Below are positions 46,075 through 64,000 of a DNA stretch of 64,000 bases, in pieces (positions within the stretch are counted from its first letter, which is position 1; every line of letters starts with the position of its first letter). Source of the stretch: an uncultured Paracoccaceae bacterium (GTDB lineage: Bacteria; Pseudomonadota; Alphaproteobacteria; Rhodobacterales; Rhodobacteraceae); assembly GCA_947502145.1 (NCBI GenBank), contig CANMYO010000001.1, positions 744,001-808,000 of the forward strand, read 5' to 3'. A program made the position numbers and the translations under genes. Below the pieces are notes generated by a model. The model was not told the DNA's origin. It ran no database searches and saw nothing but the letters and a program-made list of their open reading frames with translations.

Positions 46075-48021
46075 CTAGAGCATTCGCATGGTCGAAAATG
46101 CGTTGCTGATCGCCTCTTGCGGATGGCCCGGCCAGACGCAATCGCCGATCGTGTGGACTTCGGGGATTTCCGAAAGGACACCGAATTCGGCAAGCAAATG
46201 TTCAAGGTCCCGCTCCATCGTCCGCTCGATCGCAAACACAACTTGATCAATTCCCTTCAGTGTCTCCATTGCACCGCCAGATTGAACGACCAGTGAATCG
46301 GCTTCGATACGTTCAACATTGGAGTTGGTCCTAATCGTTATCTGATCGCTCGCTGCAAGGCGTGCGTTCATGACCTGCTGTGCCATGAACTCCAGGTCCT
46401 GTGCGATGGCGTCCGTGGCTTCGATGACCGTGACCTTTGCCCCTGCCTCGGCCAGCGATTCCGCGACCGCCATTCCAAGCCATTGCCCGCCGATCACGGC
46501 AACGGATTCACCAGCATTGACGCGGCCTTGGGTAATTGCGTCGTAATCGGTAACATGTGGCAGGTCCCAGCCAGGAAGATATTTCGGAATAAAGGGACGA
46601 GTACCGGTGGCAAGGATCAACGCGTCGGGCTTTGCATCGGCGATGTCATCAGGCGACACCGTGTGACGCAGGTAAATCGTGGCTCCCGCCTGCACGGCCA
46701 GCTTTTCGCGGTCGGCTGCGGCTTGGCGCCATTGCGACTGGTGATGATGCGACCCCAGCACGTTCAGGTGGCCGCCAAGCCGGTTCGTCATCTCGTAGAG
46801 CGTCACGTCATGACCGCGCGTTGCAGCAACCCGCGCAGCCTCAAGCCCGGCAGGCCCGCCGCCTACGATCATTACTTTCTTTTTCTTTTCGGCAGGATGA
46901 ATCGCGGCCAGCCGTTCCCGACCTGCGGCGGGATTCACAGTGCAGACCGACGGTTTGTTTACAAAAAGCTCCATACAGCATTTGTTGCAGGCGATGCAGC
47001 TGATGACTTCGTCCTGACGGCGCGCCAACGATTTCGACAGGATTTCCGGGTCGGCGTGGAAAGCGCGCCCCATGTGAATGAAATCGCAGTTGCCACCCGC
47101 GACCATGGCATCGGCCCCGGCGATATCGTCGACCCGCCCAGCTCCGATCACCGGGATGTTCACGCCCTCTTTGACTTGCCGTGCGAGTGGCATCAGGACA
47201 CCTGGCACCATGTCCATCGGCTGAATAAGCGACTCGATGTTTTCGTACCGCCCGGTCGAGATATCGGCAAAATCGAGCCCCAGCGTTTCCAGATGCCGGA
47301 CCAGCCGAACGATATAATCGACCTCGTAGCCGCCGTCCAACCCCTCCCGCGCAGAAAGGCGTACGCCGATTGGCATGTCCTTGCCAACCTCAGAGCGCAT
47401 CGCCTGATAGATCTCGATCAGGAACCGCCAGCGGTTCTCGTCGCTACCACCATATTGATCGCTCCTAAGGTTGCTGACGTAGGAAAGGAAACCCGTGATC
47501 AGGTACCCGTGGGCGCCATGGATTGTGATCATGTCATAACCGGCTTCCGCCGCCCGGCGCGCGCCTGCCGCAAACGATTTCACGACGTCCGCGATCTCGT
47601 CAGTGGTCAGGGCATGGAGTTCATGACCACCCACCATCGGAAAGGGCAAGTTCGACGGGCCAACGGGCTGTAAGCCAGTGCGATGCGTATTCGCGTTCCT
47701 GCCTCCGTGATTCAACTCAGCAGAGGTGCGGCACCCATGGGCCTGCACCGCTGCGTTCAACGCTTGGTGCGCCGGGATATTGTCGTCGGACCAAAGCCCA
47801 AGTTGGAACAGATTTCCCCGGCCTCGGGCATCAATATAAGTTGCCTCGAAGTTCATTGTTCCGACGCCGTGTTCGGCCCGCAATGCGTAATAGTCAATAT
47901 AGTTCTGACCCGGATTGCCCAGGCGATCGCACCAGTTCTTTTCCATTGGTGACAGGGATACGCGATTGCGAATTTCGAGCGAACCTATCTGTCCTGGTTG
48001 GGTAATTGCCTCATATGCCAT
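46075..48021 (-). CDS. NADH:flavin oxidoreductase / Old Yellow Enzyme-type FAD-dependent fusion (2,4-dienoyl-CoA reductase/TMADH-like)
   Basis: 648 aa; N-terminal OYE barrel, CIACNKCCMELFVNKPSVCTVNP Fe-S motif, C-terminal VMIVGGGPAGLEAARVAATRGHDVTLYE. Confidence 0.94.
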   Translation of the reverse strand: MAYEAITQPGQIGSLEIRNRVSLSPMEKNWCDRLGNPGQNYIDYYALRAEHGVGTMNFEATYIDARGRGNLFQLGLWSDDNIPAHQALNAAVQAHGCRTSAELNHGGRNANTHRTGLQPVGPSNLPFPMVGGHELHALTTDEIADVVKSFAAGARRAAEAGYDMITIHGAHGYLITGFLSYVSNLRSDQYGGSDENRWRFLIEIYQAMRSEVGKDMPIGVRLSAREGLDGGYEVDYIVRLVRHLETLGLDFADISTGRYENIESLIQPMDMVPGVLMPLARQVKEGVNIPVIGAGRVDDIAGADAMVAGGNCDFIHMGRAFHADPEILSKSLARRQDEVISCIACNKCCMELFVNKPSVCTVNPAAGRERLAAIHPAEKKKKVMIVGGGPAGLEAARVAATRGHDVTLYEMTNRLGGHLNVLGSHHHQSQWRQAAADREKLAVQAGATIYLRHTVSPDDIADAKPDALILATGTRPFIPKYLPGWDLPHVTDYDAITQGRVNAGESVAVIGGQWLGMAVAESLAEAGAKVTVIEATDAIAQDLEFMAQQVMNARLAASDQITIRTNSNVERIEADSLVVQSGGAMETLKGIDQVVFAIERTMERDLEHLLAEFGVLSEIPEVHTIGDCVWPGHPQEAISNAFSTMRML

Positions 48022-48041
48022 GTGCCGTTCCTTGGTGAGTA

Positions 48042-49478
48042 TTAGGTGAAGTCAATGACGTTCAGATGATTTCGGAATGGGCGGCGCGCGAGAACCTCCA
48101 TCCCAGACCACGCAGCGAATTCCGCCAGCAGGTCGCTGTGGTCGCCGGGAAGGGCGACGAAATGATGTTCCAGCCCGTGCGCCATCACGGTTGCCAACAC
48201 GTCTTCAAGCGTTGCACTGTCACCGGCGATCCTGAATTTTTCCATCCAGCCGCGGCAGCCATCGAAACCGGAAGGATTCTGTTGGGCGACCTCGGTCTGC
48301 ATGTAAAAAAGCGCCGTTGCGTCTCGGGCCACACGAAAGACGGAATGCGGACCGGGACGGAAAATGAAATCGGCAACCCCGCCGATCGCCGGGCTGTCCG
48401 GGCTTTCGCGGCCAATCATCGGGTGATTGATCCATGTCGCGCCATCGTCATCTGCCATGTAAAGCGGGCCGCCGCCTCCGTGCCACATCTGCAATCGCCC
48501 GTTCGTCAGGTCCGGTTCCGTTATGTCCAATAGACACCCAAGGCGACCGGAAATCGCCCGCGCCAGAAGTTGCGTCACCGCACCCAGGACGTCTCCCTCG
48601 GAGGAACAGGGAATGCGGTCCACCTCTTCGATCCAGGAGAAAGCGCTTCCCGGGTGCATTCCCGGATTTTCCTGAAGGGCCGGCCAATCGCTTACGGCAA
48701 ATGCATCAAGACCTTCGCGCGACGCCAAGGCCCGCAGCCCAAGTGCACATCGTGCCGTCAATTGCATTTGATGTTCACTGACACCCTTTACCGCTGCGGC
48801 AGAGCACATTTTCTCCAACTCTTTCGCAACATGATCGCCGGGGAAGGATTCCATCAAATTGGTGAGCGCAGGCATGTCGTATTCGACAATTTCCAGGCCC
48901 AGTCGCGCCGAAAGCCCGTCGTTCGATACCGCCATATTGTAAAATGTCTGGGCTAGGCCCCCAACCAGGCCGATGCGGCTATTGCGGACCGACTTCAGCG
49001 CGGACAACGCTCGGATCGTCGTCGAGATCCTTGTCTGAAGAGCCGGATCCTCGGGCGCCCCGTAATACCATTGGATCGGATTCGCGCGCAGATCTCGGAC
49101 GCCGCGTGCGATCGACATGGTCATGTTCAGCGACACAAAATTGTTCAATTGCACGTCGCCGGTATGGGTCGGCTCTGGGATCGCCCAAACACCCAAAGGC
49201 AGATCGCCAGACGCGATTTCGCGCGCCACATCGCCCATAGTAAATCCGCCATGAACGAGCAAAATGAAGTCCACGGCCTCAACCTCGGCCAGCGCCATCA
49301 CCTCTTTTGCGGCCTTGGCGTCGGCGACTTCTCCGGGGAAGATGTTTAGGACACATCCGAGGTTATCCGCCAATTGGCGAAGGGCATTTTCGGCTCGGCT
49401 CCAGACGCAGTGCGGCCCCGGAAAGTAGCGACCCGTGAGGTTCGCCTGAACCACCAAAATGTCTATCTGGTCAGCCAT
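48042..49478 (-). CDS. L-fucose/L-arabinose isomerase superfamily-like protein
   Basis: FILLVHGGFTMGDVAREIA, AFAVSDWPALQ..., and PCSSEGDVLGAVTQLLARAISG resemble FucI/AraA-type domains; start refined to MADQIDIL. Confidence 0.7.
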   Translation of the reverse strand: MADQIDILVVQANLTGRYFPGPHCVWSRAENALRQLADNLGCVLNIFPGEVADAKAAKEVMALAEVEAVDFILLVHGGFTMGDVAREIASGDLPLGVWAIPEPTHTGDVQLNNFVSLNMTMSIARGVRDLRANPIQWYYGAPEDPALQTRISTTIRALSALKSVRNSRIGLVGGLAQTFYNMAVSNDGLSARLGLEIVEYDMPALTNLMESFPGDHVAKELEKMCSAAAVKGVSEHQMQLTARCALGLRALASREGLDAFAVSDWPALQENPGMHPGSAFSWIEEVDRIPCSSEGDVLGAVTQLLARAISGRLGCLLDITEPDLTNGRLQMWHGGGGPLYMADDDGATWINHPMIGRESPDSPAIGGVADFIFRPGPHSVFRVARDATALFYMQTEVAQQNPSGFDGCRGWMEKFRIAGDSATLEDVLATVMAHGLEHHFVALPGDHSDLLAEFAAWSGMEVLARRPFRNHLNVIDFT

Positions 49479-49590
49479 GGGCCGCTCCGGTGGTTTGGCG
49501 TGTCCAACGCGCCGCATAAGGCTTGGTTTTTTGGGCGAATTGCACAGTTTCGTTGACTTTTTGCCCGCAAATCCTCAATACCATTCCCAA

Positions 49591-50211
49591 ATGATGACTG
49601 CGCCAAACGCCAAATATTCCAAGGACACCAGCCGCGCTTCGATGGCGAAGCGCCGGATTATGGACAGCGCGACCGGGCTCTTTGCCGAGCGCGGCTATGG
49701 TAACGTTGGTATCAATGAAGTTGGGGTGACCGCGGGCTTCGGTAAAGGCGCGCTTTATTACCACATTCGATCCAAGGAAGACCTTCTCGTCTCGATTGTT
49801 TACGATCACATGGACCGGCTGACCGCAGAGACAAAATTGGCCGCCGGAAAATGCGTCAAAACGGCGGAGAAGATTTACGCAATGGCCGCGATATTCGTTG
49901 AGCACCTTCTTGAATACGCTGACGCGATGACGGTGAGTTATCGCGACATTCACGCGGTTGCGGCGCCGGAAAACATTCAAGTCGTCGATGATCTGCACAA
50001 CAACTACCGTCAGATTTGGACGGACGTATTTGAAAATGGTGCCCGGTCGGGCGAGCATCGACCAGTATCGGACCAGGAGATCGAGATTTTTCTTGCGATG
50101 ATGTTCTCGTCGGTGTTCTGGGTCGGCCCCGGCTCCGAAACCGATCCCGAGAAGCTGATCGCGACGTTTTCGCATAATGTGATCAGCGCGGTCCAAGCAC
50201 CGGTTGGCTAA
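49591..50211 (+). CDS. TetR family transcriptional regulator
   Basis: AKRRIMDSATGLFAERGYGNVGINEVGVTAGFGKGALYYHIRSKEDLLVSIV; start refined to 49591. Confidence 0.93.
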   Translation: MMTAPNAKYSKDTSRASMAKRRIMDSATGLFAERGYGNVGINEVGVTAGFGKGALYYHIRSKEDLLVSIVYDHMDRLTAETKLAAGKCVKTAEKIYAMAAIFVEHLLEYADAMTVSYRDIHAVAAPENIQVVDDLHNNYRQIWTDVFENGARSGEHRPVSDQEIEIFLAMMFSSVFWVGPGSETDPEKLIATFSHNVISAVQAPVG

Positions 50212-50259
50212 AGAACGCGTTGACACGGTATCATATCGCCAAACCACTTTCATCACGCG

Positions 50260-51759
50260 TTAAAGCGCCTTTCCATTTTCATCCAGACCCAGTTGCGCAC
50301 CCAATTCCCGCTTCAAAGGGATCTCGGCGTACCGCCAAAACAGCGTTTTTACCCAGGCCGCCGCATTTGGATCCGAGTCAGGGCCCGAGATTCGGAACAT
50401 CTCGCCGGTAATCGGGCATTTCGGCAGAATCGTCGCAAGCTCGGTATCGTCACCTGCATCGGGCATGGTGGTGGCCAGTCTGGCGAAACGGACCGCCATT
50501 TCGTGCTGTTCGCGATATCCCGTATGGTGCTCCTGTTCGATGCAATCTTGGACACCCTGACGAAGTTCTGCTTCGGTCGGCGCATCGATACGCCCGCTCC
50601 AGGAATAGGCGATCCAGCGCGCCTGTTGTTCGAGCACGACAGGATAGGGGCCAAGCTGCGCCCAGAGACCCATGAACGCCAATCCCGGCAAGTCGGGATG
50701 AAACGTGAACTGACAAAGGTCCAGGCTCTTCTGCGATACGTTTGTCGTAGCTGCGATTTCTTCCGAAAGAAATGGCAGATGCAGATCAAACCCTGTGCCA
50801 ATGATGATCGCGTCGACCTGAACCGTTGTGCCGTCTTCAAATGTGACCTGATCACCGGAGATGCTTTTTACCCAGGGGCGAACGGCGATACGGTCTTCGG
50901 CAACGAGGTTCAGGTAGTGCTGGCTCCCCGTGACCCCGGCCTTGGCCATGTCGTCATGTGGTGCCGGCGCATCGTAGCGCGCTGGATTGCCGCCCTTGAG
51001 TTCAAGGAATTCCTTTGTTCCGGCCAAGAGATCGTCGGTTTCGATATCGTCTAGGGCCTCTGCGCCTTCCAGAGTGAAGGCATAGAACTCCAGCGGCACC
51101 CCGGCGAACATTTTTGGCATCACATAACGTTGTCGCCGCTGGGACATATAGATTTGTCCACGCCCCATCATCGCCTGATCCGACGCAACCTCCATCGACG
51201 AGATTGAGCCGCCCAAAACGAGAATATTCATGTCCCGAAACTCGTAAGGGTCCTTGTAGCGATGGCTGTGAAGGACGCCTCCTTTGCCAGTGAACCCGTC
51301 CATTCCCGGAACTTTCGGGATTTCCGGCTTGATGAATCTGCCAGAGGCAACAATTGCGCGGTCAAAACTCTTTCGATGATCGCCCGCATTGTCGGTCCAG
51401 CTGACAGCATACCCATCGCCATCACGTTCAAGCTTGGTCACTTCAGCGCCAAGTTTGAAAAGGTCGTTCAATTCGTTGGCATCGACCATGTCCCGTATCA
51501 TGTCCAGCACTTCCCCGTTGCGCGGGAAGATATTCACGCCGGGACGGTATTGAACATCGGAGAGCTTCGTCGCGAAATTCGCCGTGTTGGTCCGCATCGT
51601 AGGCCAAACACCGGAATCCGGATTGGTAAGGTTCCACTGACCGCCAAACTCATCGTGGTTTTCGAATATCGTCGGGGCGAACCCTTCCGAGGCCAAGTAT
51701 CGCGCGGCTGAGATGCCTGCCACGCCACCGCCAATAATTGCGACTGTTTCTTTGCTCAC
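50260..51759 (-). CDS. Flavin-containing monooxygenase (FMO/BVMO-like)
   Basis: 499 aa; GGGVAGISAARYLASEGFAPTIFENHDEFGGQW, FTGKGGVLHSHRYKDP (FxGxxxHxxxY-type), VLGGSISSMEVA. Confidence 0.9.
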   Translation of the reverse strand: MSKETVAIIGGGVAGISAARYLASEGFAPTIFENHDEFGGQWNLTNPDSGVWPTMRTNTANFATKLSDVQYRPGVNIFPRNGEVLDMIRDMVDANELNDLFKLGAEVTKLERDGDGYAVSWTDNAGDHRKSFDRAIVASGRFIKPEIPKVPGMDGFTGKGGVLHSHRYKDPYEFRDMNILVLGGSISSMEVASDQAMMGRGQIYMSQRRQRYVMPKMFAGVPLEFYAFTLEGAEALDDIETDDLLAGTKEFLELKGGNPARYDAPAPHDDMAKAGVTGSQHYLNLVAEDRIAVRPWVKSISGDQVTFEDGTTVQVDAIIIGTGFDLHLPFLSEEIAATTNVSQKSLDLCQFTFHPDLPGLAFMGLWAQLGPYPVVLEQQARWIAYSWSGRIDAPTEAELRQGVQDCIEQEHHTGYREQHEMAVRFARLATTMPDAGDDTELATILPKCPITGEMFRISGPDSDPNAAAWVKTLFWRYAEIPLKRELGAQLGLDENGKAL

Positions 51760-51785
51760 AGGGATCGCCCCCTTTCTTCTTCCAG

Positions 51786-53021
51786 TTAACCTTCGACGTT
51801 TCGGGACGCCGGGGATGCGGTGCGCATATCCAGAAATCTTGCCAGGTGGCCAAAGATCCGCGCGGCAAAATCCGGGTCATTAATGTTCTTGGGCGTGGTT
51901 TCGATTTTGATCGCGCTTGACGCGGTCTCGGACAAGCCCGCGTGAAATGCCTTCACTGCTTTGGGGTCGTAGAAAACCTCGCCCTTGCGATCCATCATCG
52001 AGGTTCCCCCCAGCGGAACACAGACAATGGTCTCGGCTTCGGGCTCGCCAAGCCGCTCGCCCAGCACCTTGCCTATTTTGTGGCATTCGTCAGGGGTAGT
52101 GCGCACCAATGTAACCAAATCATTATGCGCATGGACGACATGATCCTTGAATTTCTTTGGAACTCCGCCCGGTCCAAAGGCAACCATGTCAATTGCGCCT
52201 GGAGCGATGACCTGAGGCAATCCCGCCTTGGCGGCAGAAGACAAGCGATCCGGCCCGGCGGGAAATGCGCCGCCCAGCACCTCGTTGCCAAGCTCGGCCA
52301 GTGTCAGGTCTGCAACGGCATCAATCAGCCACTGTCTTGCGAACCGCTCAATCGTGATTCCGCCGGTTCCGTTGGCGTGAAAAACCAAAGGATCCACGCC
52401 CAGCAGTCTCAGGTGCTTTTCAACATGCTGAACGCAAGGGGTCGTAACGCCATACATGCTTAACGCGACGCGCCGTTCATCGCCGACCACGGTAAGTGGG
52501 CCATTTGACTTGATAACAACCGCAGTGCTCGCAAGGCGTTTTATCATCGCGCGCAGAATGGTATTGTCGCCATCAACATCGACAACAGGGTACATCAAAA
52601 CCGTATCGGCCCCATCTACCAATGCGCGGGTTTCGCCGGACACGAAAGTTGCCATCAGTATTTTCGGAATACCCATGGGAACTTCGGGGACAAGATGGGT
52701 GAAAACGGTTGCTGCGTTGGAGCCGCCCATAAGGACCAGAACACCAACTTCGCCTTTCGAGACCAGTTCACCCAGAATCTTTGCCGCGCCCTGCGCCATG
52801 ACGTGCACAGCCTCTGCGCGGCCACGCGGGCCGAGCGACGCGTGTTTTTCGCCAGCATATTCCGCAACCGCCTCGGCAGAGTAACTAGGTGATGCCTGCG
52901 ACGGAAAGACGCTGACATCGATCGTTATTGGGTCCTCGCCCTGCGCCACCAGCTCTTTTTCAAGGGTCTTGAGTGGCTTTAGCTTGGTGTCAAATGTCCC
53001 AACAACGACGACTCTGGTCAT
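51786..53021 (-). CDS. Tm-1-like ATP-binding domain-containing protein (UPF0261)
   Basis: 411 aa; VVVVGTFDTKLKPLKTLEKEL, VLVLMGGSNAATVFTHLVPEVPMGIPKILMATFVSG, HANGTGGITIERFARQWLIDAVADLTLAELGNEVLGG. Confidence 0.9.
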   Translation of the reverse strand: MTRVVVVGTFDTKLKPLKTLEKELVAQGEDPITIDVSVFPSQASPSYSAEAVAEYAGEKHASLGPRGRAEAVHVMAQGAAKILGELVSKGEVGVLVLMGGSNAATVFTHLVPEVPMGIPKILMATFVSGETRALVDGADTVLMYPVVDVDGDNTILRAMIKRLASTAVVIKSNGPLTVVGDERRVALSMYGVTTPCVQHVEKHLRLLGVDPLVFHANGTGGITIERFARQWLIDAVADLTLAELGNEVLGGAFPAGPDRLSSAAKAGLPQVIAPGAIDMVAFGPGGVPKKFKDHVVHAHNDLVTLVRTTPDECHKIGKVLGERLGEPEAETIVCVPLGGTSMMDRKGEVFYDPKAVKAFHAGLSETASSAIKIETTPKNINDPDFAARIFGHLARFLDMRTASPASRNVEG

Positions 53022-53860
53022 CTTTCGGTTCCCAATTCCATCTCTTTAAAATCGCGGACCGTATTCTCGATTGCAGTCTCGACGGGCAATCGTTCCATCG
53101 TAGACGCACCGACAAAGCCCTCGATTTCGGCGTCGCGTACAAGAACCTGTGCTTGTTCAGCGTTCTCCACCGGACCGCCATGTCCAAGAATAATCACATC
53201 CGGACGCTCTGCCCGACATGCTTCGGCAATGCCCTTTGTCAATTCAACACAATGGTCCACGCTTTTCACATAGGTTCCGGTGGCCCCGATGGTTCCGCCG
53301 GTCGTCAGCCCCATATGGGCGACCACGACATCCACACCAGAACGAACCATGGCCACAGCTTCATCGGGATTGAAACAGTATGACAAGGTGAACAGGTTCT
53401 GCTGATGCGCCTCGGCAATCATCGACACCTCCTGGTCATAGCCAAATCCGGTTTCTTCAAGGCTCCGGCGCCAGGCACCATCAATGATTCCGTGCGACGG
53501 AAAGTTAATGACGCCTGAGAACCCGACCCGCGGCAAATCAGCCAGAAAGCGGGACATCACGCGGGTAGGATCGGTCCCGTTCACACCCGCAATGACGGGT
53601 GTGTCCTTGACCACCGGCAACACGTCACGTTCGCCCATTTCCAGGACGATGGCATTGGCGTCACCAATTGCCAGCAATCCGGCATTTGAGCCAAAACCGT
53701 TCATCCGATACCGGCCCGAATTGTATACTAGGATAAGATCGGCGCCGCCGCGCTCGGCAAATTTTGCCGAGATCCCGGTACCTGCGCCAGCGCCAATAAC
53801 CGGCCGGCCTGTCGCAATCACCGATCGAAGCCGACGAAGCGTTTCCTGTCGATCAAACAT
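53018..53860 (-). CDS. Phosphoenolpyruvate hydrolase-like TIM-barrel protein
   Basis: 280 aa; GAGAGTGISAKFAERGGADLILVYNSGRYRMNG...VVAHMGLTTGGTIGATGTYVKSVDHCVEL...VIILGHGGPVENAEQAQ; ATGA overlap with the Tm-1-like gene. Confidence 0.88.
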   Translation of the reverse strand: MFDRQETLRRLRSVIATGRPVIGAGAGTGISAKFAERGGADLILVYNSGRYRMNGFGSNAGLLAIGDANAIVLEMGERDVLPVVKDTPVIAGVNGTDPTRVMSRFLADLPRVGFSGVINFPSHGIIDGAWRRSLEETGFGYDQEVSMIAEAHQQNLFTLSYCFNPDEAVAMVRSGVDVVVAHMGLTTGGTIGATGTYVKSVDHCVELTKGIAEACRAERPDVIILGHGGPVENAEQAQVLVRDAEIEGFVGASTMERLPVETAIENTVRDFKEMELGTER

Positions 53861-53878: not shown

Positions 53879-54676
53879 TTAGTCCACCATGATCATCCCG
53901 CCGTTCACATGGATCGTTTGTCCTGTGATGTAGGCGGATGATTCAGAAGCCAGGAAGATCGATGTACCGACAAGGTCTTCGGCAACCGTCATGCGGCCAA
54001 TTGGGATATAGCGTTCATATTCCATCAGGAATTCACGGTGATGGGCATGCATGGGCGTGTCGACTCCGCCCGGCGCAATCGCGTTAATCCGAACGAAATG
54101 CTCAGCCATGAACTGCGCTGCGCCGCGGGTGTAGGATTGCAGCGCCGCCTTCGCCGCGCAGTAATCCACGCCACCGCCCGATTGGTTGAACACCGATGCC
54201 CGCGAAGACCAGGACGAACCGGTATTGATAACTGATCCGCTTTTCTGCTTTTCCATGATCGGTAAAACCGCGCGCATGATCTGTATCGGCGCCTTGAGAT
54301 TGATCTTGATCATCAGATCGAATTCTTCGTCGGTGATCGTGCGCGGATCTGTGTAGGACATGATGCCGGCATTGTTCATCAGGCAATCAACCCGGCCACC
54401 AAGATCCATACACGCATCGACAATCTTCTGCGCGGCATCGTCTGCAGAGACATCCGTTGCGACCGTCGCACAATCCGGCCCTAGATCGTCCAGACCCTTT
54501 TTGGTCTCAGCCAGCAAGTCAGCGTTCAAATCTACGGCGACCACCTTTGCGCCTGCGCTCGCGAACCCTTCGGCAAGCGTGCGCCCGATCCCCTGCCCCG
54601 CGCCTGTTATGGCCACAACTTTGTCGGTGACATCAAAAAGGTTCCCGCGAATATTCGGTACCGGCAATCTGGACAT
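53879..54676 (-). CDS. Short-chain dehydrogenase/reductase
   Basis: 265 aa; VVAITGAGQGIGRTLAEGFASAGAKVVAVDLN, CLMNNAGIM, GGVDYCAAKAALQSYTRGAA. Confidence 0.95.
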   Translation of the reverse strand: MSRLPVPNIRGNLFDVTDKVVAITGAGQGIGRTLAEGFASAGAKVVAVDLNADLLAETKKGLDDLGPDCATVATDVSADDAAQKIVDACMDLGGRVDCLMNNAGIMSYTDPRTITDEEFDLMIKINLKAPIQIMRAVLPIMEKQKSGSVINTGSSWSSRASVFNQSGGGVDYCAAKAALQSYTRGAAQFMAEHFVRINAIAPGGVDTPMHAHHREFLMEYERYIPIGRMTVAEDLVGTSIFLASESSAYITGQTIHVNGGMIMVD

Positions 54677-54696: not shown

Positions 54697-55731
54697 TTAA
54701 CGCCGCGAGGGGCCAAGTGTGTATGACATCAGAAGCGCAACCACGAGCAGGACACCCTGCACGAAACTTTGCGCGTAATATGGAAAATTGAACATGGTCA
54801 GCCCATTGATAAGCGCAGCCACAAAAACCGCACCGATCAAAGTTCCGAATGCATTGGGCTTGTTGGCACCCAGCACGGCATAGCCGACCAGCGCGGCTGA
54901 GACGGCCTGCAACAGGAAAGGATCACCAACATTGACATCCCCGCGGTTGGAGCGCGCCGCCAGCATCATACCGGCGATGGAGGCGAGACCGCCCGAAATC
55001 AGGTAGGCGGCGATGCGATACCGCGCGACCCGGATGCCCGCAGCGGCAGCCGCCACCGGGTTGCCTCCAACGGCATAAAAGGCCCGGCCCCAGCGGGTGA
55101 AGTTCAAAAGCACCGTGACCAAAATGAAGACGGTCGCGGCAATGACAACGGAAGCCGGAACCGAGAATACGTCACCCGATCCGATCCATTTGAACAAAGG
55201 CGTGAACTCGCCCTGTGTTCGTTCGCCATTGATGACCATGCCTTTGGCAACGGATTGTCCGCCAACACCCATAAGGGTAAGGCCGTTGATCAGGAACAGC
55301 GACGACAGCGTTGCCACAAGATCAGGAATGCGTGCGTAAACGATTAGGATGCTGTTCAACACACCGACAGCAAGCCCGGCACACATACCGATCAAAATGG
55401 CAACTGTTCCACTGAACTCACCAACAACCATTGCGGCAGCAGCAGCCATGATAGACAGGCTCATCGCGGCTCCAACCGACAAATCAAATCCACCGACGGT
55501 CATCGACACGGTGCAACCGAGACCCACCACCGCTACGATTGAGGCGGCCTGAAGAATGAACATCGCGTTAATGAAGGTGCCAAAGAAGGGCTGCGTCACC
55601 GTAAAGTAAACGATCATCAAGCCCAAAACAGCCAAGAGCCCATACCGGTAGACGAATTGTTTGGTTGCTTCGATGCCGCTGCGCTTGGGGGCTTTCAGTG
55701 CAGTTGTTCCCATTAGTGTTTCTTCTTTCAC
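54697..55731 (-). CDS. Sugar-type ABC transporter permease (RbsC-like)
   Basis: 344 aa; GGFDLSVGAAMSLSIMAAA, PDLVATLSSLFLINGLTLMGVGGQ, GYAVLGANKPNAFGTLIGAVFVAALINGLTMF. Confidence 0.94.
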   Translation of the reverse strand: MKEETLMGTTALKAPKRSGIEATKQFVYRYGLLAVLGLMIVYFTVTQPFFGTFINAMFILQAASIVAVVGLGCTVSMTVGGFDLSVGAAMSLSIMAAAAAMVVGEFSGTVAILIGMCAGLAVGVLNSILIVYARIPDLVATLSSLFLINGLTLMGVGGQSVAKGMVINGERTQGEFTPLFKWIGSGDVFSVPASVVIAATVFILVTVLLNFTRWGRAFYAVGGNPVAAAAAGIRVARYRIAAYLISGGLASIAGMMLAARSNRGDVNVGDPFLLQAVSAALVGYAVLGANKPNAFGTLIGAVFVAALINGLTMFNFPYYAQSFVQGVLLVVALLMSYTLGPSRR

Positions 55732-55737
55732 GACTAT

Positions 55738-57312
55738 TTAGGCCACATTGCGGGTGGTCTGCGCTTCGCGCCCCTGCCCCATGATTTGTGCCAATGTTTC
55801 GGCGGTCAGATTGGCCGAATTGTCCTCGTGGACTATGTCCGCCTCAACCATGATCAACGCGCGATCCGCGACCTCGATCACTTCTTCGGGGTCCGAGCTG
55901 CACACAATTACCGGGTATTTTTCCGAATACTGTCGAAGCGCACTTGAAATCAGGCCGCGCGCCCCGATGTCGATCCCACGGAAGGGCTCGTCCAGCACCA
56001 GCAGTTTCCATCCCCGGCTAAGCCACCGGCCCACCAGAAGCTTCTGCTGGTTCCCCCCCGACAGTTCCTCGATCTCGGCCAATGGACCGGGCGCCTTAAC
56101 CTGAAAATCGCGAATAACGTCTTCGGTGAAGGCGATTTCGCGGCGTCGCAACATGAAACCGCTGCGGCTGAAATCCTCTGCAAGACCAATTGTGCTGTGC
56201 TTCCAGAGTGGCTCGTTGGGGAACATGGACTGAAGCGCCCTCTGTTCCGGCACCATGACCACGCCTTTTTTCATCGCGTCGGAAACGTCCTTCGGGTTGT
56301 ATTCCTCGCCCTCGATGGACAATGTCCCGGACAGCAGCGGCCGATGCCCGCAAATCTGCTCCAGCAACTCGGTCTTTCCGGCCCCGATCAGGCCCGTCAG
56401 ACCAAGGATTTCGCCACGCCGGATCTCAACCGAAACCGGCGGGCTTTCCGGAAACGCGCGAAGCCCCTTTGCCTCGATCACCACTTCCTTGCCTGGTCGT
56501 GCCTCGTGTTTTGACGCAAGAACCAATTCGCCGAGGATTGATCCGGCAATTGCGGTCGAATCAAGAGGCTTTTCATGTTCGGACACGATCATGCCATCGC
56601 GCAGAACCACAGCGCGGTCACAAAGCCGTTCGACCTCGCTCATGCTGTGCGAAATAAACAGGATCGTAATCCCGCGACGCTGGAATTCTTCCACCGCCAG
56701 AAACAGTTTTTCGGCCTCACGCTTGGAAAGCGTGGATGTTGGTTCATCAAGGATCAAAAGCTTGGGATTCTTGGAAATCTCTCTTGCAATAGCAACCTCT
56801 TGGCGACCACTTGCCGGCAAGTCCTGGATCAGCGAGTTCAGCGGCAGGTCCAGGTCCAGTTTTTCCTGCACCTCGCGGGCGCGTTCAACAATTGTTCGGT
56901 TTCTAATGAAGAACGAGCTCTGGCTTGTCGCAATTTCGTCCAGCAAGAGGTTTTCGGCGACGGTCATTCCGAAGACGACGCCGTCGTCGATATTTTGATG
57001 GACCGTTGCAATCCCCGCATTTCGGGCATCAACGGGGAACCGGAAATCTTTCTCCTCGCCTTCGATGATAATACGGCCGGAGGTCGGCGGATGGATGCCG
57101 GACAACGTCTTGATTAAAGTGGATTTTCCGGCGCCGTTTGCGCCCAGAAGCCCAACTGTTTCACCGGGCCGGATTTCGAAAGAAACGCCCCGCAAAGCCC
57201 GCGTTGCGCCAAATGTCTTGGTAATCTCTTCGAATGCAACGAAGGCAGACGAAGCCGGACTGGCCGGCGCTGTATTCGCGCCGACCGTCATATTTTCAGT
57301 AACAGGTGTCAC
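55738..57312 (-). CDS. Sugar-type ABC transporter ATP-binding protein with two NBDs (RbsA-like)
   Basis: 524 aa; GLLGANGAGKSTLIKTLSGIHPPTSG, second NBD GLTGLIGAGKTELLEQICGH, LSGGNQQKLLVGRWLSRGWKLLVLDEPFRGIDIGA. Confidence 0.95.
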   Translation of the reverse strand: MTPVTENMTVGANTAPASPASSAFVAFEEITKTFGATRALRGVSFEIRPGETVGLLGANGAGKSTLIKTLSGIHPPTSGRIIIEGEEKDFRFPVDARNAGIATVHQNIDDGVVFGMTVAENLLLDEIATSQSSFFIRNRTIVERAREVQEKLDLDLPLNSLIQDLPASGRQEVAIAREISKNPKLLILDEPTSTLSKREAEKLFLAVEEFQRRGITILFISHSMSEVERLCDRAVVLRDGMIVSEHEKPLDSTAIAGSILGELVLASKHEARPGKEVVIEAKGLRAFPESPPVSVEIRRGEILGLTGLIGAGKTELLEQICGHRPLLSGTLSIEGEEYNPKDVSDAMKKGVVMVPEQRALQSMFPNEPLWKHSTIGLAEDFSRSGFMLRRREIAFTEDVIRDFQVKAPGPLAEIEELSGGNQQKLLVGRWLSRGWKLLVLDEPFRGIDIGARGLISSALRQYSEKYPVIVCSSDPEEVIEVADRALIMVEADIVHEDNSANLTAETLAQIMGQGREAQTTRNVA

Positions 57313-57315
57313 AGC

Positions 57316-58392
57316 TCAGTTCATCCATGGAGCCAGAGCAAGACCCGGGGTTGAGAGACCCGGGAAGGCTTCACCCAACTGGTCAACATTTGTAACGCCG
57401 TTTGAAATGAGATCATCTCGGGTGATGACCAGCGGCGGAATTTCAAGGTTGTTACCCTCATATGCATCCGTCGCTTCGCCAGCGGCCACGCGCAGAGAGA
57501 TTCGGCCAAAATTTTTCATATCCGTCGTAGCAGTTGCGACCCACGGGCTTTTATCGGCGATCATCACCGAAATATCGGCGGTGGAGATATCCATTCCGTA
57601 GGCTTTGACCTTGTCTTCCAGACCAAGCTCCTGAATGGCCAGCGTCGCGCCTTTTGTGAACTCGTCGTAAGGTGCGACAATGGCAACCGTATCGGGATTC
57701 GCCTGAAGCGCCGCGATAGCTTGGTTGGCTGTCTCCGCAGCCGTGTTCGCGTTCACCACGCCAATTTGGGCGACTTCGTTGATGCCCGGATTCGCATCTT
57801 TCCACTTCCGCCAGATTTCATCGCGAAGGTCGAGCGGGCGATAACCGGCGACGTAGACATAAATCATGTCGCCAGCAACGGCTCCACCCATGTCACTCTG
57901 CATCTGCTGCATGATACCTTCCATCATCAAGTGCTCTGACTGGTTGACCAGGGTCACGCTGTCAGAGGCCTCGATCGAGGCGTTGGACGCGACGACCGGG
58001 ATCCCGGCTGCGCTTGCGGCTTCCAGACCTGCCTGAAGGCTGTCGCCAAACCCCCACCCAATGACAATTGCGTCCGGGCCCTCGGCAACAGCCTGCTGAA
58101 GTTGCAATGCCTGCTTGGCGTTGTCCCCGTCGGCGTTGAAGATCGACAGTTCGACTCCAAGCTTTTCTGCCTCTTCTTGAACACCGGTGATCCAGGCCTG
58201 ATAGACATCGCCCACGTTCAATTGACGAACGACCGCGATTTTGAAGCCTCCGTCAGAAACAGAAGCCGGGACTTCACTTGGTGCGCTTGCCGAAACGGTC
58301 AGTGGAATCTGATCCGCCCAGGCGGCCGAAGCCATCAATGCACCGACAAGCGGCGCTAGGGCTACATTTTTGATTTTTTCTTGAATAGACAA
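57316..58392 (-). CDS. Sugar-type ABC substrate-binding protein (RbsB/TorT-like)
   Basis: 358 aa; signal peptide then FKIAVVRQLNVGDVYQAWITGVQEEAEKLGVELSIFNADGDNAKQALQLQQAVAEGPDAIVIGW. Confidence 0.9.
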   Translation of the reverse strand: MSIQEKIKNVALAPLVGALMASAAWADQIPLTVSASAPSEVPASVSDGGFKIAVVRQLNVGDVYQAWITGVQEEAEKLGVELSIFNADGDNAKQALQLQQAVAEGPDAIVIGWGFGDSLQAGLEAASAAGIPVVASNASIEASDSVTLVNQSEHLMMEGIMQQMQSDMGGAVAGDMIYVYVAGYRPLDLRDEIWRKWKDANPGINEVAQIGVVNANTAAETANQAIAALQANPDTVAIVAPYDEFTKGATLAIQELGLEDKVKAYGMDISTADISVMIADKSPWVATATTDMKNFGRISLRVAAGEATDAYEGNNLEIPPLVITRDDLISNGVTNVDQLGEAFPGLSTPGLALAPWMN

Positions 58393-58769: not shown

Positions 58770-60701
58770 ATGAGCGAAATCCTTTGGCAGCCAAACCCCG
58801 AAGCAGCCGCGACCACAGCGCTTGTACGTTTTGCCAGACAGGCCGGTTTTGAACCGGACGACTACGAGGCGTTGCACCGATGGTCGGTTTCGGACAAAGG
58901 TGCGTTCTGGTCGCTGGTCTGGGATTTCTGCGAAGTCATTGGCGACAAAGGCAACGTTGCGTTCCGCCCGGATGAAGGCAACTGGATGACCGGTGCGCGG
59001 TTCTTTCCGGAAGCGAATCTGAATCTGGCGGAAAACCTTCTTTTGCGAGGTGGCGACGCGGACGTTGCAATCATTGCCTCTGACGAATCGGGTGCCGTGA
59101 ACACGTTGACGCGTCGCGAATTGCGCGGACGCGTGGCAAGGGTGGCGGATGGTCTAAGACGCTGCGGTGTAGTTCCCGGCGACAGGGTGGCAGGTGTTCA
59201 GGGTAACACGCCCGACGCGCTGGTTGCGACGCTCGCAACACTCAGCCTTGGGGCTGTCTGGACGTCATGCTCGCCGGATTTTGGGTTGGCGGCAATTCTG
59301 GACAGAATCGGGCAGGTACAGCCAAAAGTACTTTTCGTGTCACCGGAATACCGCTATGGCGGCAAAACCCACGACATCTCTGAGCGCATCGCAAAGGTTG
59401 TTGAGGAACTGCCTGATTTAGCGCAAGTGGTGTCAAGCGGCGCCACGTTGCCGGGCGCGGCAAACCAAAGCGAATTTGGCGAAACAGCGGAGCTGAGCTT
59501 CACGCGCGTTCCGTTCGACCACCCCGCATACATCCTATACACGTCCGGCACGACTGGAGCCCCCAAGGCCATCGTCCACAGAACCGGCGGCGTTATTCTT
59601 CAACACTTGAAAGAGCACATTCTTCATGGTGATGTGCGCCCGCCCGACCGGGTGATTTGGTACACGAACACGGCCTGGATGATGTATCATTGGCAGATTT
59701 CGGCATTGGCAACCGGTGCGGCTGTTGTGCTGTACGATGGTGCGCCCGTGATCAAATCCGAAAACGGGCTGGATTGCAGCCCATTGTGGCGTCTCGTCAG
59801 CAATGCATCTGTCACCCATCTGGGTGTCTCGCCAAAGTATTTGTCCGTTCTTGCCGCGGAAGGGTTTCTCCCCGGGGAGCGCCACACGCTTGACTCGCTT
59901 CGCGCGCTTCTTGTGTGTGGCGCACCTTGTTTACCCCATCAGTTTGACTGGGTTTTTGACTCGGTCAAACGCGACATGATGTTCGCGTCGATCTCGGGTG
60001 GGACAGAGATTTTGGGATCGTTCCTGATCGGCTCACCGATCCATCCGGTCCGGCGCGGTGAACTGTCCGTTCAGGCACTTGGCCATGCAATGAGCGTTCT
60101 GGACGAAAGAAACGCGCCCGTGACCGGAAAGCGGGGCGAGCTGGTTTGTACAGAGCCCTTTCCGTCCATGCCCCTGACTTTCTGGGGCGAGGATGGCAAA
60201 AAGCGCTTTCATGACACCTATTTTTCTGAGCGCACCGAAATCTGGACACATGGCGACATCGCGGAAATGACCATTTCCGGAGGTGCCTATGTCCACGGCA
60301 GATCCGACAGCACGTTGAATCCCGGCGGGGTCCGGATTGGCATCTCAGAGATATACGCCGTTTGCGAGCGCCACCCCGAGATCGAGGATTATGTCGTATT
60401 CGGAGCGAGAACGGCAGATGATGAAGAGATTGTCCTGGCGCTGAAACCGGCTGAGGCGGCGAACATTGACGCTGAACTGGTGCGGCGCCTGCGCGCCGAC
60501 ATTCGCCGGGACGCCTCGCCACGGCATGTTCCCGCGCGTATCCATGTGGTTTCCGCGATCCCCTACACGATCAACGGCAAGCGCGTCGAAAGCGCTGCGC
60601 GAATGGCAGCGAACGGCGACGCGGTCAGGAACCTCGGCTCACTGGCAAACCCGGAATGCCTGGATGAGTTTGCTGGTCTGTCACGGAAGGGAGCATTGTG
60701 A
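58770..60701 (+). CDS. Acetoacetyl-CoA synthetase-like acyl-CoA ligase
   Basis: 643 aa; AYILYTSGTTGAPKAIVHRTGGVILQHLKEH, TNTAWMMYHWQISALATGAAVVLYDGAP, ISGGTEILGSFLIGSP, PYTINGKRVESAAR. Confidence 0.92.
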   Translation: MSEILWQPNPEAAATTALVRFARQAGFEPDDYEALHRWSVSDKGAFWSLVWDFCEVIGDKGNVAFRPDEGNWMTGARFFPEANLNLAENLLLRGGDADVAIIASDESGAVNTLTRRELRGRVARVADGLRRCGVVPGDRVAGVQGNTPDALVATLATLSLGAVWTSCSPDFGLAAILDRIGQVQPKVLFVSPEYRYGGKTHDISERIAKVVEELPDLAQVVSSGATLPGAANQSEFGETAELSFTRVPFDHPAYILYTSGTTGAPKAIVHRTGGVILQHLKEHILHGDVRPPDRVIWYTNTAWMMYHWQISALATGAAVVLYDGAPVIKSENGLDCSPLWRLVSNASVTHLGVSPKYLSVLAAEGFLPGERHTLDSLRALLVCGAPCLPHQFDWVFDSVKRDMMFASISGGTEILGSFLIGSPIHPVRRGELSVQALGHAMSVLDERNAPVTGKRGELVCTEPFPSMPLTFWGEDGKKRFHDTYFSERTEIWTHGDIAEMTISGGAYVHGRSDSTLNPGGVRIGISEIYAVCERHPEIEDYVVFGARTADDEEIVLALKPAEAANIDAELVRRLRADIRRDASPRHVPARIHVVSAIPYTINGKRVESAARMAANGDAVRNLGSLANPECLDEFAGLSRKGAL

Positions 60702-61858
60702 GACATCTGGCGCCCCAATCTGCCATTAGCGGGATCGGAGAACTAAAGCCGGTACGCCGAACAAATGGCGTCTCCACAATGGAGCTTTTGATCGAGGTTT
60801 CGGCGCTTGCCGCCGGGGATGCGGGAATCTCACCACAAGAAATCGACGGCTTGCTGGTCGGACCGCAGGTCGGCGAAACGCCCCAGCATGTTCCCGCGAC
60901 GGTGGCTGAGTATTTCGGCATGCAACCGACCATGTCCAACGTGGTTGACCTTGGCGGCGCATCCGGACCGGGCATGATCTGGCGCGCGGCAGCCGCGATC
61001 GCCGCCGGACAGTGCGAAACGGTTCTGTGTGTTTTGGGCAATCATCGCAATGACGAGCCGCCATTCGCCCGAAACCGCAATCCGATACGCGAATTCGACG
61101 TGCCGTTTGGTGCTTCGGGCGCAAACCTGTCTTATGCATTGATTATGCAGGCACATATGGCGGCCTATGGGTGCAGCCCCGAGGATTATGCGATGATCGC
61201 CGCCGGTGCACGCGCCAACGCGCAGCTTAATCCGGATGCAATCTTTTACGGAAAGCCCGCGTCAGTTAACGACATTCTGGCCTCGCCAATGGTGACTTCG
61301 CCCCTGCACCTGCTGGAAATCGTTATGCCCGTGGCCGGTGGTGACGCGGTGATTGTGACGACAATGAAAAACGCAAAACGCGGTTCGCACCGGCCTGTTG
61401 AGCTTTGGGGTGCTGGTGAAAAACTCACCCATCGCGCCGTTAGCCAGGCGCCATCGCTTACATCCGGTCCGTTGAAACCATCGATAGAACGTGCGCTTGA
61501 CCAGGCTGGAATAAGTGCGGGCGGAATTGACTTTCTGTCGCTCTATGATTGTTACACGATCATGGTCGCGGCGACGATCGAAGATGCAGGCCTTTGCGCC
61601 CCCGGTGGGTTTGCCGACTGGCTGCGCGAAAATGGCGGCATGGGCCCCGACGCCCGGCAGCCCGTCAACACGCATGGCGGTCAGCTGGGTTTTGGCCAAC
61701 CTGATCTGGCCGGTGGCATGACCCATGTTGTCGAAGCTGTTCGCCAGCTTCGCGGCGACACGCCAGAGCGGCAAATCAATGATTGCCGCTCGGCGTTGAT
61801 AACCGGTAACGGCGCAACCATGAGCGAAGCCGTTGCACTGGTTCTGGGAGTAACCTGA
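60698..61858 (+). CDS. Thiolase-superfamily (SCP2/Ltp2-like) protein lacking the catalytic cysteines
   Basis: 386 aa; DLGGASGPGMIWRAAAAIAAG, SLYDCYTIMVAATIEDAGL, NTHGGQLGFGQPDLAGGMTHVVEAVRQLRG; GTG start overlaps the ligase stop. Confidence 0.85.
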   Translation: MRHLAPQSAISGIGELKPVRRTNGVSTMELLIEVSALAAGDAGISPQEIDGLLVGPQVGETPQHVPATVAEYFGMQPTMSNVVDLGGASGPGMIWRAAAAIAAGQCETVLCVLGNHRNDEPPFARNRNPIREFDVPFGASGANLSYALIMQAHMAAYGCSPEDYAMIAAGARANAQLNPDAIFYGKPASVNDILASPMVTSPLHLLEIVMPVAGGDAVIVTTMKNAKRGSHRPVELWGAGEKLTHRAVSQAPSLTSGPLKPSIERALDQAGISAGGIDFLSLYDCYTIMVAATIEDAGLCAPGGFADWLRENGGMGPDARQPVNTHGGQLGFGQPDLAGGMTHVVEAVRQLRGDTPERQINDCRSALITGNGATMSEAVALVLGVT

Positions 61859-62739
61859 TGGTTGAAAAACTTGCGTCTATCTCTGTTCCGGGCCCTACAC
61901 CGATCCCTTTGACACAGGAATTCTGGACAAGTGCCAAAAATGGGGTGCTTGTTACACAGATATGTGGCGATTGCGGCCAACATGTTTTTTATCCTCGCGG
62001 GCGGTGTCCTTTCTGTTGGTCAGGCGATCTCGAATGGGCGCCAGTTTCCGGAAAAGGCCGCCTTAAGTCCTATAGTCAGGTCTGGAAACCCGGAAACAAG
62101 TCCTGGATTCCGGCCACGCCGTACATAGTGGGATTGGTCGAACTGGACGAAGGGCCGAAGATGCTGACCACGGTTCTCTGCGCCGACCTTCCGGAGGTTG
62201 GCGACCGGCTCACTTTTGTACCCTTTAACATCGGAGGCCGCGTGCTTCCCTGTTTTCATGCATTCACAGAAGAGGAGGCCCAGGCGATGGGAGCAATGGA
62301 AAAGGACGGGTGGCAAGGAGTCATCAACGGCAAACCGAAAATCGGCGACACTGTGGAACGGGTTCGGACCACCAAACTGGAAGATATCCATGCGTTCACC
62401 GAAATGACCGGCGATCGTAACCCGGTCCACTATGACGAGGAGCTGGCCAAAAAGACACCGTTTGGCAAACTGATCGTTCAGGGCGGCGTCACGACAGGCA
62501 TGCTCAATGCCTGTGTTGCCGAAGATTTGCCGGGCCCCGGTACGGTCTTCCTGAATACCAACCTGAACTTTCTGAAAGCGGTCGGTGTCGGCGAAAAGAT
62601 TACAGCGCGGGTAGAAGTCGAAACCGTGCGCGACGACAAACCGATTTGCGGGCTCAAAGTGCTGATTTCTGACAGCCAGGGCGATGCTTGCGTTGAAGGC
62701 GAAGCAACGACTTACACGATGGCGCTGAAGGGACTTTAA
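61858..62739 (+). CDS. DUF35 (rubredoxin-like Zn ribbon + OB fold) - MaoC hydratase fusion protein
   Basis: 293 aa; N-terminal CGDCGQHVFYPRGRCPFCWSGDLEWAPVSGKGRLKSYSQV; C-terminal FTEMTGDRNPVHYDEELAKKTPFGKLIVQGGVTTGMLN (MaoC hot-dog). Confidence 0.88.
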   Translation: MVEKLASISVPGPTPIPLTQEFWTSAKNGVLVTQICGDCGQHVFYPRGRCPFCWSGDLEWAPVSGKGRLKSYSQVWKPGNKSWIPATPYIVGLVELDEGPKMLTTVLCADLPEVGDRLTFVPFNIGGRVLPCFHAFTEEEAQAMGAMEKDGWQGVINGKPKIGDTVERVRTTKLEDIHAFTEMTGDRNPVHYDEELAKKTPFGKLIVQGGVTTGMLNACVAEDLPGPGTVFLNTNLNFLKAVGVGEKITARVEVETVRDDKPICGLKVLISDSQGDACVEGEATTYTMALKGL

Positions 62740-62745
62740 GGGGGC

Positions 62746-63411
62746 ATGGCGAGAATGAAGAAAGCTGAACTGGCAAAGCGGCAGGCGTTGATTTCTCACT
62801 GCCTCGAACTGAACGAGTCTGGTCTGAACCGCGGCACGTCCGGCAATATTTCAATACGTCACGATGATGGCTTCCTGATTTCGCCCACGTCCACGTCCTA
62901 TCGTTCGCTGACGCCCGAAATGGTCAGTTTTGTTCATTTGGATGGAACATGGACCGGCCCGATTGAACCGTCATCCGAGTGGCGGTTTCACCGAGACATC
63001 TATCGCGCTAAATGCGAAACAAATGCGATTGTTCATGCGCATCCGGATTTTTGCACGATTCTGGCGATCCACGGCAAAGAAATCCCCGCTATTCACTACA
63101 TGATCGCGATCTTTGGTGGCCCCGCGATCCGCGTTGCACCCTATGCAATCTTCGGAAGCCAGGCTCTTTCGGATCATGTCGTGGCCGCACTCAGGGACCG
63201 TCAGGGATGTTTGCTGGATCACCACGGCGCCATCGCGATTGGCACGACCATTGAGCAGGCGTTTTGGCGCGCAGAGGAGTTGGAAACGCTGGCGCGGCAG
63301 TATCACGGGGCGCTGCTCTTGGGTGATCCGCCGCTTCTGAGCGATCGGCAAGTCCAGGAGGTTATCGACAAAATGTCCGGGTACGGACTGAGCAGAAAGG
63401 AAGAATTGTGA
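62746..63411 (+). CDS. Class II aldolase/adducin family protein (FucA-like)
   Basis: 221 aa; GLNRGTSGNISIRHDDGFLISPTSTSYRSL, SSEWRFHRDIY, AIVHAHPDFCTILA, LLDHHGAIAIGTTIEQAFWRAEELETLARQY. Confidence 0.92.
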   Translation: MARMKKAELAKRQALISHCLELNESGLNRGTSGNISIRHDDGFLISPTSTSYRSLTPEMVSFVHLDGTWTGPIEPSSEWRFHRDIYRAKCETNAIVHAHPDFCTILAIHGKEIPAIHYMIAIFGGPAIRVAPYAIFGSQALSDHVVAALRDRQGCLLDHHGAIAIGTTIEQAFWRAEELETLARQYHGALLLGDPPLLSDRQVQEVIDKMSGYGLSRKEEL

Positions 63412-64000
63412 GCCGGTTTGACCTCTGCGCCGTCGGGTTCACGGTGCTCGATACCCTGTGCACCCCTGCCGACGAAATGCCGCCCAATGGTGGCGCAACA
63501 TTCGTCGACCAGATGACAATGACGGTTGCGGGCACCGCCGGATCAACCGCATATGTCTGCGCAATGCTGGGAATGCAGGTCCGGTTAGCGACCGAGCTTG
63601 GCGCTGATCCAATGGGCGATTGGCTGGTCAACGCACTGGGCGACGCTGATGTCGACACGTCTTTGATTACTCGGAACAAAGAGGTGCAGACACCGATGTC
63701 AATGCTCCCTATCGGCCAAGATGGTGCCAGGCGGGCGTTTTTCACTCCTGGAACGGCCAGCACCTTCACGATGAGTGACGACGCGATCGAGCGCGCCACG
63801 GATGCCCGTTTCGTTCACCTTGGCGGCATCGGGCTGCTCACGTCGTTCGACGGCGAGCGCTCGGAAGCGCTTCTCCGGCGTGCCAAGGAAAAAGGCAGGA
63901 CCACAACTCTCGACCTGATCCTTGCGGACGAGCGTGCATTCGACAAGGTCAAGCCTCTGCTGCCTTTCGTCGACTATTTCATCCCCTCCATCGACGAGGC
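63408..64000 (+). CDS. PfkB family carbohydrate kinase, 3' end outside window
   Basis: Not in the ORF track (GTG start at 63408, no stop before the window end). Reads MSRFDLCAVGFTVLDTLCTPADEMPPNGGATFVDQMTMTVAGTAGSTAYVCAMLGMQVRLATELGADPMGDWL...FVHLGGIGLLTSFDGE. Confidence 0.88.
   Translation, partial: MSRFDLCAVGFTVLDTLCTPADEMPPNGGATFVDQMTMTVAGTAGSTAYVCAMLGMQVRLATELGADPMGDWLVNALGDADVDTSLITRNKEVQTPMSMLPIGQDGARRAFFTPGTASTFTMSDDAIERATDARFVHLGGIGLLTSFDGERSEALLRRAKEKGRTTTLDLILADERAFDKVKPLLPFVDYFIPSIDE

Follow-up and report, generated by a model that had tools for sequence, protein, structure and literature searches.

In a 64,000-nt stretch of DNA from an uncultured Paracoccaceae bacterium (contig positions 744001–808000; the whole stretch is hereafter called the window), a plus-strand operon that runs from position 58770 onward contains a gene for a thiolase-fold protein without a nucleophilic cysteine (386 aa, 60698–61858) and, directly downstream, a gene for a protein that joins an N-terminal DUF35 part (zinc ribbon plus OB fold) to a MaoC/PhaJ-type hydratase domain (293 aa, 61858–62739). 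We consider it likely that the two proteins form a hydratase-aldolase pair bridged by DUF35, like Sal/Shy but within a distinct clade acting on a small polar acyl-CoA, and that the pathway leads from a CoA ligase through the hydratase to retro-aldol cleavage with release of acetyl-CoA. Sal/Shy chemistry and the domain order are already known; what is new, as judged from the sequences, is a clade of hydratase-aldolase pairs that is not directed at steroids. The original prediction for this DNA had placed both open reading frames (ORFs) and read their motifs correctly, and its proposal of a hydratase with a retro-aldolase instead of a thiolase is probably right.

A thiolase fold without the thiolase nucleophile

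A species-level genome scan gave 80 related loci, with proteins 65–86% identical, in alpha-, beta- and gammaproteobacteria and in Bacilli; plasmid records added Rhizobium, Shinella, Sulfitobacter and Mesorhizobium, as well as two rhodococci with 60% identity, Rhodococcus jostii RHA1 (pRHL1) and R. opacus. In a structure-anchored MAFFT alignment that included solved structures and 77 relatives, from which the counts out of 77 given here are taken, Gly87 of the window protein occupies the column of the nucleophilic Cys of Pyrococcus furiosus thiolase 7yvy, and this residue is Gly in 77/77 relatives. The loss of the nucleophile, earlier read from DLGGASGPGM, is thereby borne out. The protein is however not "cysteine-less" as it had been called, for it has six Cys, of which Cys106, Cys111, Cys285 and Cys300 are conserved and Cys285 stands at a catalytic position. 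Nor is the absence of a C-terminal CxG (ITGNGATM in its place) the diagnostic sign it was taken for, because 7yvy keeps its nucleophile and lacks CxG as well. The protein matches PF22691 (1.1e-39) and does not reach the cut-off set for the classical N-terminal thiolase model, and the features of SCP2-type thiolases, i.e., the nucleophilic Cys and the HDC/HDx motif, are replaced by Gly87 and Y283-D-C. That it is nevertheless a genuine thiolase or acyltransferase, working through another residue, would agree with the fold, with the four conserved cysteines and with the existence of DUF35-thiolase acyltransferases such as PhlABC; with Gly at the nucleophile position in 77/77 relatives, YDC in place of the thiolase HDx and a Cys-bearing thiolase already present in the operon in most loci, this is very improbable.

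The closest solved structure is that of the Comamonas testosteroni Sal-Shy(DUF35) complex, 9myr (PMC12329534). Its Sal chain (CtSal, 9myr_A) came first in a sequence search of solved structures (E = 1.5e-81), with the actinobacterial steroid aldolase Ltp2 (6ok1_A) third (1.4e-38), and the window protein is 40.6% identical to CtSal, 30% to Ltp2 and 28% to the Trypanosoma brucei SLP (TbSLP). An AlphaFold model built from 22 sequences (pLDDT 76, pTM 0.83) had 9myr_A as its top PDB fold match (E = 5.9e-36), and in a FastTree phylogeny of 50 proteins the window clade (support 1.0) is the sister of CtSal (0.98), with Ltp2 outside. The Ltp2-ChsH2 system, which had been proposed as the model for the pair, is therefore better replaced by Sal/Shy. 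In CtSal, Tyr302 is the base and Cys304 the acid within the motif YDCY; Y302F retains trace activity only and C304A, C304S and C304H have none, while a role in tuning the Cys has been proposed for Gln347 and Gln352, and Gly89 is in contact with the hydroxyl (PMC12329534). The counterparts of Tyr302, Cys304, Gln347, Gln352 and Gly89 in the window protein are Tyr283, Cys285, Gln329, Gln334 and Gly87, and all five are invariant in 77/77 relatives. SLYDCYTI, noted earlier for its retained tyrosines, is present, but the predicted catalytic pair is Tyr283 with Cys285 and not two tyrosines.

With Ltp2-ChsH2 (6ok1) the window pair shares a DUF35-bound thiolase-fold aldolase without nucleophile and a C4 zinc ribbon. 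The His of the Ltp2 motif YDHF and its Tyr344, which corresponds to CtSal Gln352 (PMC12329534), are absent from the window aldolase, where YDCY and Gln334 are found instead. TbSLP (5ab4–5ab7) has a YDC motif and Gly at the nucleophile position as well, and has been proposed to be an aldolase (PMC12329534); unlike the window protein it has no DUF35 partner. Many alphaproteobacteria (L092–L120) moreover carry more distant homologues (32–41%) whose motif is YDSF, YDAF or YDCF and which likewise have Gly in place of the nucleophile, and nucleophile-less DUF35-type thiolases are, by these motifs, a large and mostly uncharacterised group.

The DUF35-MaoC partner and the comparison with steroid systems

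The order DUF35 then MaoC was confirmed by Pfam (PF12172, PF01796 and PF01575; zf-ChsH2 at residues 23–59, OB_ChsH2_C at 60–119 and MaoC at 166–260). This order is reversed relative to ChsH2, in which an inert MaoC domain is N-terminal and DUF35 C-terminal, but it is not the novelty it first seemed, because Shy already has DUF35 N-terminal and MaoC C-terminal (PMC11321319, PMC12329534). Among solved structures the DUF35 part has its match in 9myr_B (3.8e-12), and the fusion is the only DUF35 protein in the genome. Its zinc ribbon, C36-x2-C39-x10-C50-x2-C53, is of the plain C4 type, which is kept in 89/90 loci, and the C3H1 zinc finger of Shy is not present in it. In the MaoC domain the hydratase motif GD186RNPVH191 with its Asp/His dyad is intact, as it is in 68/69 MaoC-bearing loci, and the nearest solved structures are 3-hydroxyacyl-thioester dehydratase 2 (3ir3) and PhaJ-type hydratases (1iq6, 5cpg). 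Fusion of the two domains is uncommon: about 9 of the 69 MaoC-bearing loci were scored as fused, DUF35 and MaoC being mostly separate adjacent genes in relatives. An AlphaFold model of the fusion protein, built from two sequences, was unusable (pLDDT 34) and was not used. Taken with the Sal match of the aldolase, these domains make a DUF35-mediated complex of the two proteins, and hydratase chemistry followed by aldol chemistry without thiolysis, likely.

The window pair resembles Sal-Shy in the thiolase fold, in the Gly for the nucleophilic Cys, in YDCY and the two Gln equivalents, and in a partner of the same domain order encoded directly downstream. It differs in the C4 ribbon, in the PhaJ-type MaoC domain and in its linked genes, an acetoacetate-CoA-ligase-type (AACS-type) ligase and sugar genes. 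It also differs in the β4-α4 region, which in CtSal walls the steroid pocket: this region is 39–40 residues long in the clade (39 in the window protein) and 56 in CtSal, i.e., 16–17 residues shorter, and CtSal Arg216 is replaced by Pro (Pro197 in the window protein). A strict bile-acid or steroid Sal/Shy pair could claim the identity to CtSal and the Shy domain order in its favour. With no C3H1 finger, the shortened loop, a PhaJ-type MaoC domain, an AACS-type and not a steroid ligase, a single DUF35 protein in the genome and sugar genes as neighbours, it is scarcely credible. From the loop, the C4 ribbon, the single DUF35 protein and the lost Arg216 it is predicted that the substrate is not a steroid. 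A canonical thiolase, an Ltp2-type mechanism and a strict bile-acid Sal/Shy pair were each rejected at residue level.

The linked ligase and the proposed pathway

The first gene of the operon (58770–60701, plus strand) encodes an AMP-forming acyl-CoA ligase of 643 aa that passes the acetoacetate-CoA ligase cut-offs (TIGR01217, 672 bits against 521; NF002937, 730 bits against 639). It is the only AACS-type ligase in the genome, where the next matches are 27–29% identical. The GTG start of the thiolase-like ORF overlaps the TGA of the ligase gene, and this close linkage is general: a ligase homologue was identified in 78/81 loci and an aldolase homologue likewise in 78/81, and the two genes nearly always overlap or abut. 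The Sal-linked ligases form one clade (0.997), apart from 23/24 of the other alphaproteobacterial AACS enzymes sampled, and the ligase and aldolase distances are correlated (r = 0.88; 0/2000 permutations). One exception to the linkage was seen among the sampled ligases, L139 of genome G086, a ligase of the Sal-linked clade (approximately 55% identical) with no aldolase gene in the 4.9 kb available. We infer that the operon ligase activates the acid of the pathway.

In the proposed mechanism the ligase would make the CoA thioester of an acid, the MaoC domain (Asp186/His191) would hydrate the 2-enoyl-CoA to the 3-hydroxyacyl-CoA, and the DUF35 domain would hold the Sal-like protein in the complex. 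Tyr283 would then serve as the base for the β-hydroxyl and Cys285 as the acid for the enolate of acetyl-CoA; no thiolysis would be involved, and the products would be acetyl-CoA and either an aldehyde or a ketone. Sugar/polyol or other upstream modules would feed in the acid. We regard a short acid, sugar-like or otherwise polar, as the probable substrate. The cleavage direction, the small polar nature of the acyl-CoA and the ligase acting first are more tentative elements of this scheme. The sequences themselves show the genes and their domains, the conserved residues, the clade and the linkage of the genes; the complex, its catalysis, the direction and the substrate are inferred.

Several observations weigh against it. 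Catalysis by members of the clade is predicted from homology, and CtSal is the sole characterised Sal in the tree, so that the position of the clade relative to steroid Sals depends on one sequence. Where CtSal has Arg216, which binds CoA, 77/77 relatives have Pro, and in the same 77 Ala stands for both Gln161 of the oxyanion hole and Gly391; CoA binding and the oxyanion hole must therefore be built differently. Two loops, QVGETPQHVP and NRNPxREFD, are by contrast invariant. No MaoC gene lies nearby in 18/18 Bacilli loci, which means that the module does not always include a hydration step. Finally, a canonical Cys-bearing thiolase is linked in 53/67 full-length loci, which the two-step scheme alone leaves unexplained.

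This thiolase is best accommodated, together with the ligase, by a specific version of the same reading, in which the pair would be an acetoacetate-producing lyase. MaoC would hydrate a substrate like 3-methylglutaconyl-CoA and the Sal-like enzyme would split the HMG-CoA-like product into acetyl-CoA and acetoacetate; the AACS-type ligase would then activate acetoacetate, and the linked thiolase would split acetoacetyl-CoA. It explains why an AACS-type ligase and an acetyl-CoA acetyltransferase travel with the aldolase, and in Sulfitobacter an AtoE-like TIGR00366 transporter adjoins the ligase, thiolase and aldolase genes. On the other hand, no gene of the leucine or mevalonate pathways was seen next to the module, the Rhodococcus ligase has a position between acetate ligases and acetoacetate ligases and reaches neither cut-off, the sugar module has no obvious place, and the substrate would need CoA activation of its own. 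The lyase version is accordingly an unlikely one, if not to be neglected.

Gene neighbourhood, spread and significance

The genes of the operon follow one another with start and stop codons that overlap or lie a few bases apart. Downstream of the DUF35-MaoC gene, at a distance of 7 bp, comes a class II (FucA-like) aldolase (62746–63411, plus strand; PF00596, 1.6e-50; PRK08087, 225 bits, below the cut-off of 264), followed by a PfkB-family sugar kinase (63408–63998, plus strand; PF00294, 1.8e-15 over the portion inside the window) that continues past the window end and is complete at L009:9408–10349. Divergent genes on the minus strand encode a sugar-type periplasmic binding protein (57316–58392; PF13407, 5e-29), the ATPase (55738–57312; AraG/XylG-like, below equivalog cut-offs) and permease (54697–55731; PF02653, 2.3e-37) of a sugar-type ABC transporter, and an SDR oxidoreductase (53879–54676; PF13561, 2.1e-54), probably a polyol or sugar dehydrogenase. 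Farther out, at 46075–53860 (minus strand except 49459–50211), lie genes for an OYE-family flavin oxidoreductase, an FMO-like monooxygenase, a UPF0261 protein, a phosphoenolpyruvate (PEP)-hydrolase-like protein, a 491-aa protein without Pfam match and a plus-strand regulator (49459–50211; TetR-type by eye). Several of them are found again next to the ligase-aldolase module of the related loci L015 and L023.

A transporter of the MFS, MHS or SSS type is found in nearly all of the 67 full-length loci. Homologues of the class II aldolase occur in 35/67 full-length related loci, and class II aldolase and sugar ABC ATPase occur together in 32/49 full-length non-Bacilli loci, usually along with GntR, SDR and PfkB genes. 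The sugar-associated, non-steroid setting predicted earlier thus holds for the window and for these loci but is not universal, since Bacilli and Rhodococcus loci contain only transporter, ligase, aldolase, DUF35 (plus MaoC in Rhodococcus) and thiolase. Aldehyde dehydrogenase (ALDH) is found in 9 loci and the sugar module in 32, and no locus has both; this suggests, without proving it, that the two are alternative ways of handling one intermediate.

The same exclusion, read as alternative fates of one aldehyde, would also fit a reaction in the direction of synthesis, in which an aldehyde set free by the adjacent class II aldolase is joined to acetyl-CoA and the resulting 3-hydroxyacyl-CoA loses water through MaoC. 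In its favour, the genes for the class II aldolase and for the sugar kinase come next in the window. The characterised Sal and Ltp2 run in the cleavage direction, however (PMC12329534), the Bacilli loci have neither class II aldolase nor kinase, and the ligase would be left without a clear role; aldol synthesis is hence improbable.

In three Rhodobacterales loci (L011, L013 and L032) the module has as neighbours genes for a GcvT/DmdA-like protein, MTHFR, a GbdR-like regulator or a ProXWV-type ABC transporter, which suggests a methylated quaternary compound in these hosts. If this applied in general, a quaternary-amine 3-hydroxyacid such as carnitine (or else crotonobetaine) would be cleaved to betaine aldehyde and acetyl-CoA, and the linked ALDH does score best against the BADH model. 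Its score is 418 bits against a cut-off of 669, however, and that of the regulator 158 against 480; the context is confined to the three loci, and neither the window nor Rhizobiales offers any pointer to betaines. As a general account this is decidedly improbable.

A sulfatase and an SsuA-type ABC transporter are encoded near the module at the window locus and at L010, and at L014 by gene-cluster membership, which hints at a sulfated substrate. At the window locus they lie just past the window (L009:12208–17585; sulfatase, formylglycine-generating-type protein and SsuA/taurine-type ABC genes), followed by a DeoR/LsrR-like sugar-binding regulator (L009:17482–18519) and a further class II aldolase, which belongs to the L-ribulose-5-phosphate 4-epimerase type (L009:18459–19127). 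The neighbours thus differ by group, i.e., a sugar module, GMC/ETF/ALDH genes, quaternary-amine genes or a transporter only, and do not agree on one substrate. By pathway and gene content the oxidative deoxyribonate pathway of Klebsiella michiganensis offers a parallel, as a sugar acid is CoA-activated and split at an acetyl unit and the cluster likewise contains a ligase, a thiolase and MFS transporters (PMC6365646). It was rejected as a substrate lead, the CoA route there using a dehydrogenase and a thiolase and not a hydratase and a retro-aldolase (PMC6365646). No characterised non-steroid Sal/DUF35 system, carnitine retro-aldolase or randomly barcoded transposon sequencing (RB-TnSeq) data on such genes were found in the collection of papers that was searched.

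A search of 60 relatives, including five congeners, gave no match to the aldolase at E ≤ 1e-60; in the five congeners the flavin monooxygenase is absent too and the ABC ATPase has matches of only 29–36% identity. The catabolic cluster is flanked by transposase genes, one for an IS240-type DDE protein (45279–45800) and one for an IS110-type protein (L009:11071–11580), and it looks like a horizontally acquired accessory island. Whether the module represents a widespread, horizontally spread pathway, in which a small polar acid (sugar- or polyol-derived, perhaps sulfated) would be ligated, hydrated and split by a DUF35-bound Cys/Tyr retro-aldolase, is in our view evenly balanced.

Databases name these proteins as thiolase, zinc-ribbon/OB-fold protein, MaoC dehydratase and acetoacetate-CoA ligase; on the reading proposed here, genome annotation consequently predicts the wrong chemistry. 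If the proposed reading is true, retro-aldol cleavage of acyl-CoA would be a general catabolic step in marine bacteria, rhizobia, halophilic bacilli and rhodococci, and Sal/Ltp2 chemistry, in the papers cited here described for steroid side chains only, would extend to general carbon catabolism. The clade would then also supply small soluble enzymes for acetyl-CoA aldol chemistry, and would provide a test of the proposal that the trypanosomal SLPs are aldolases.

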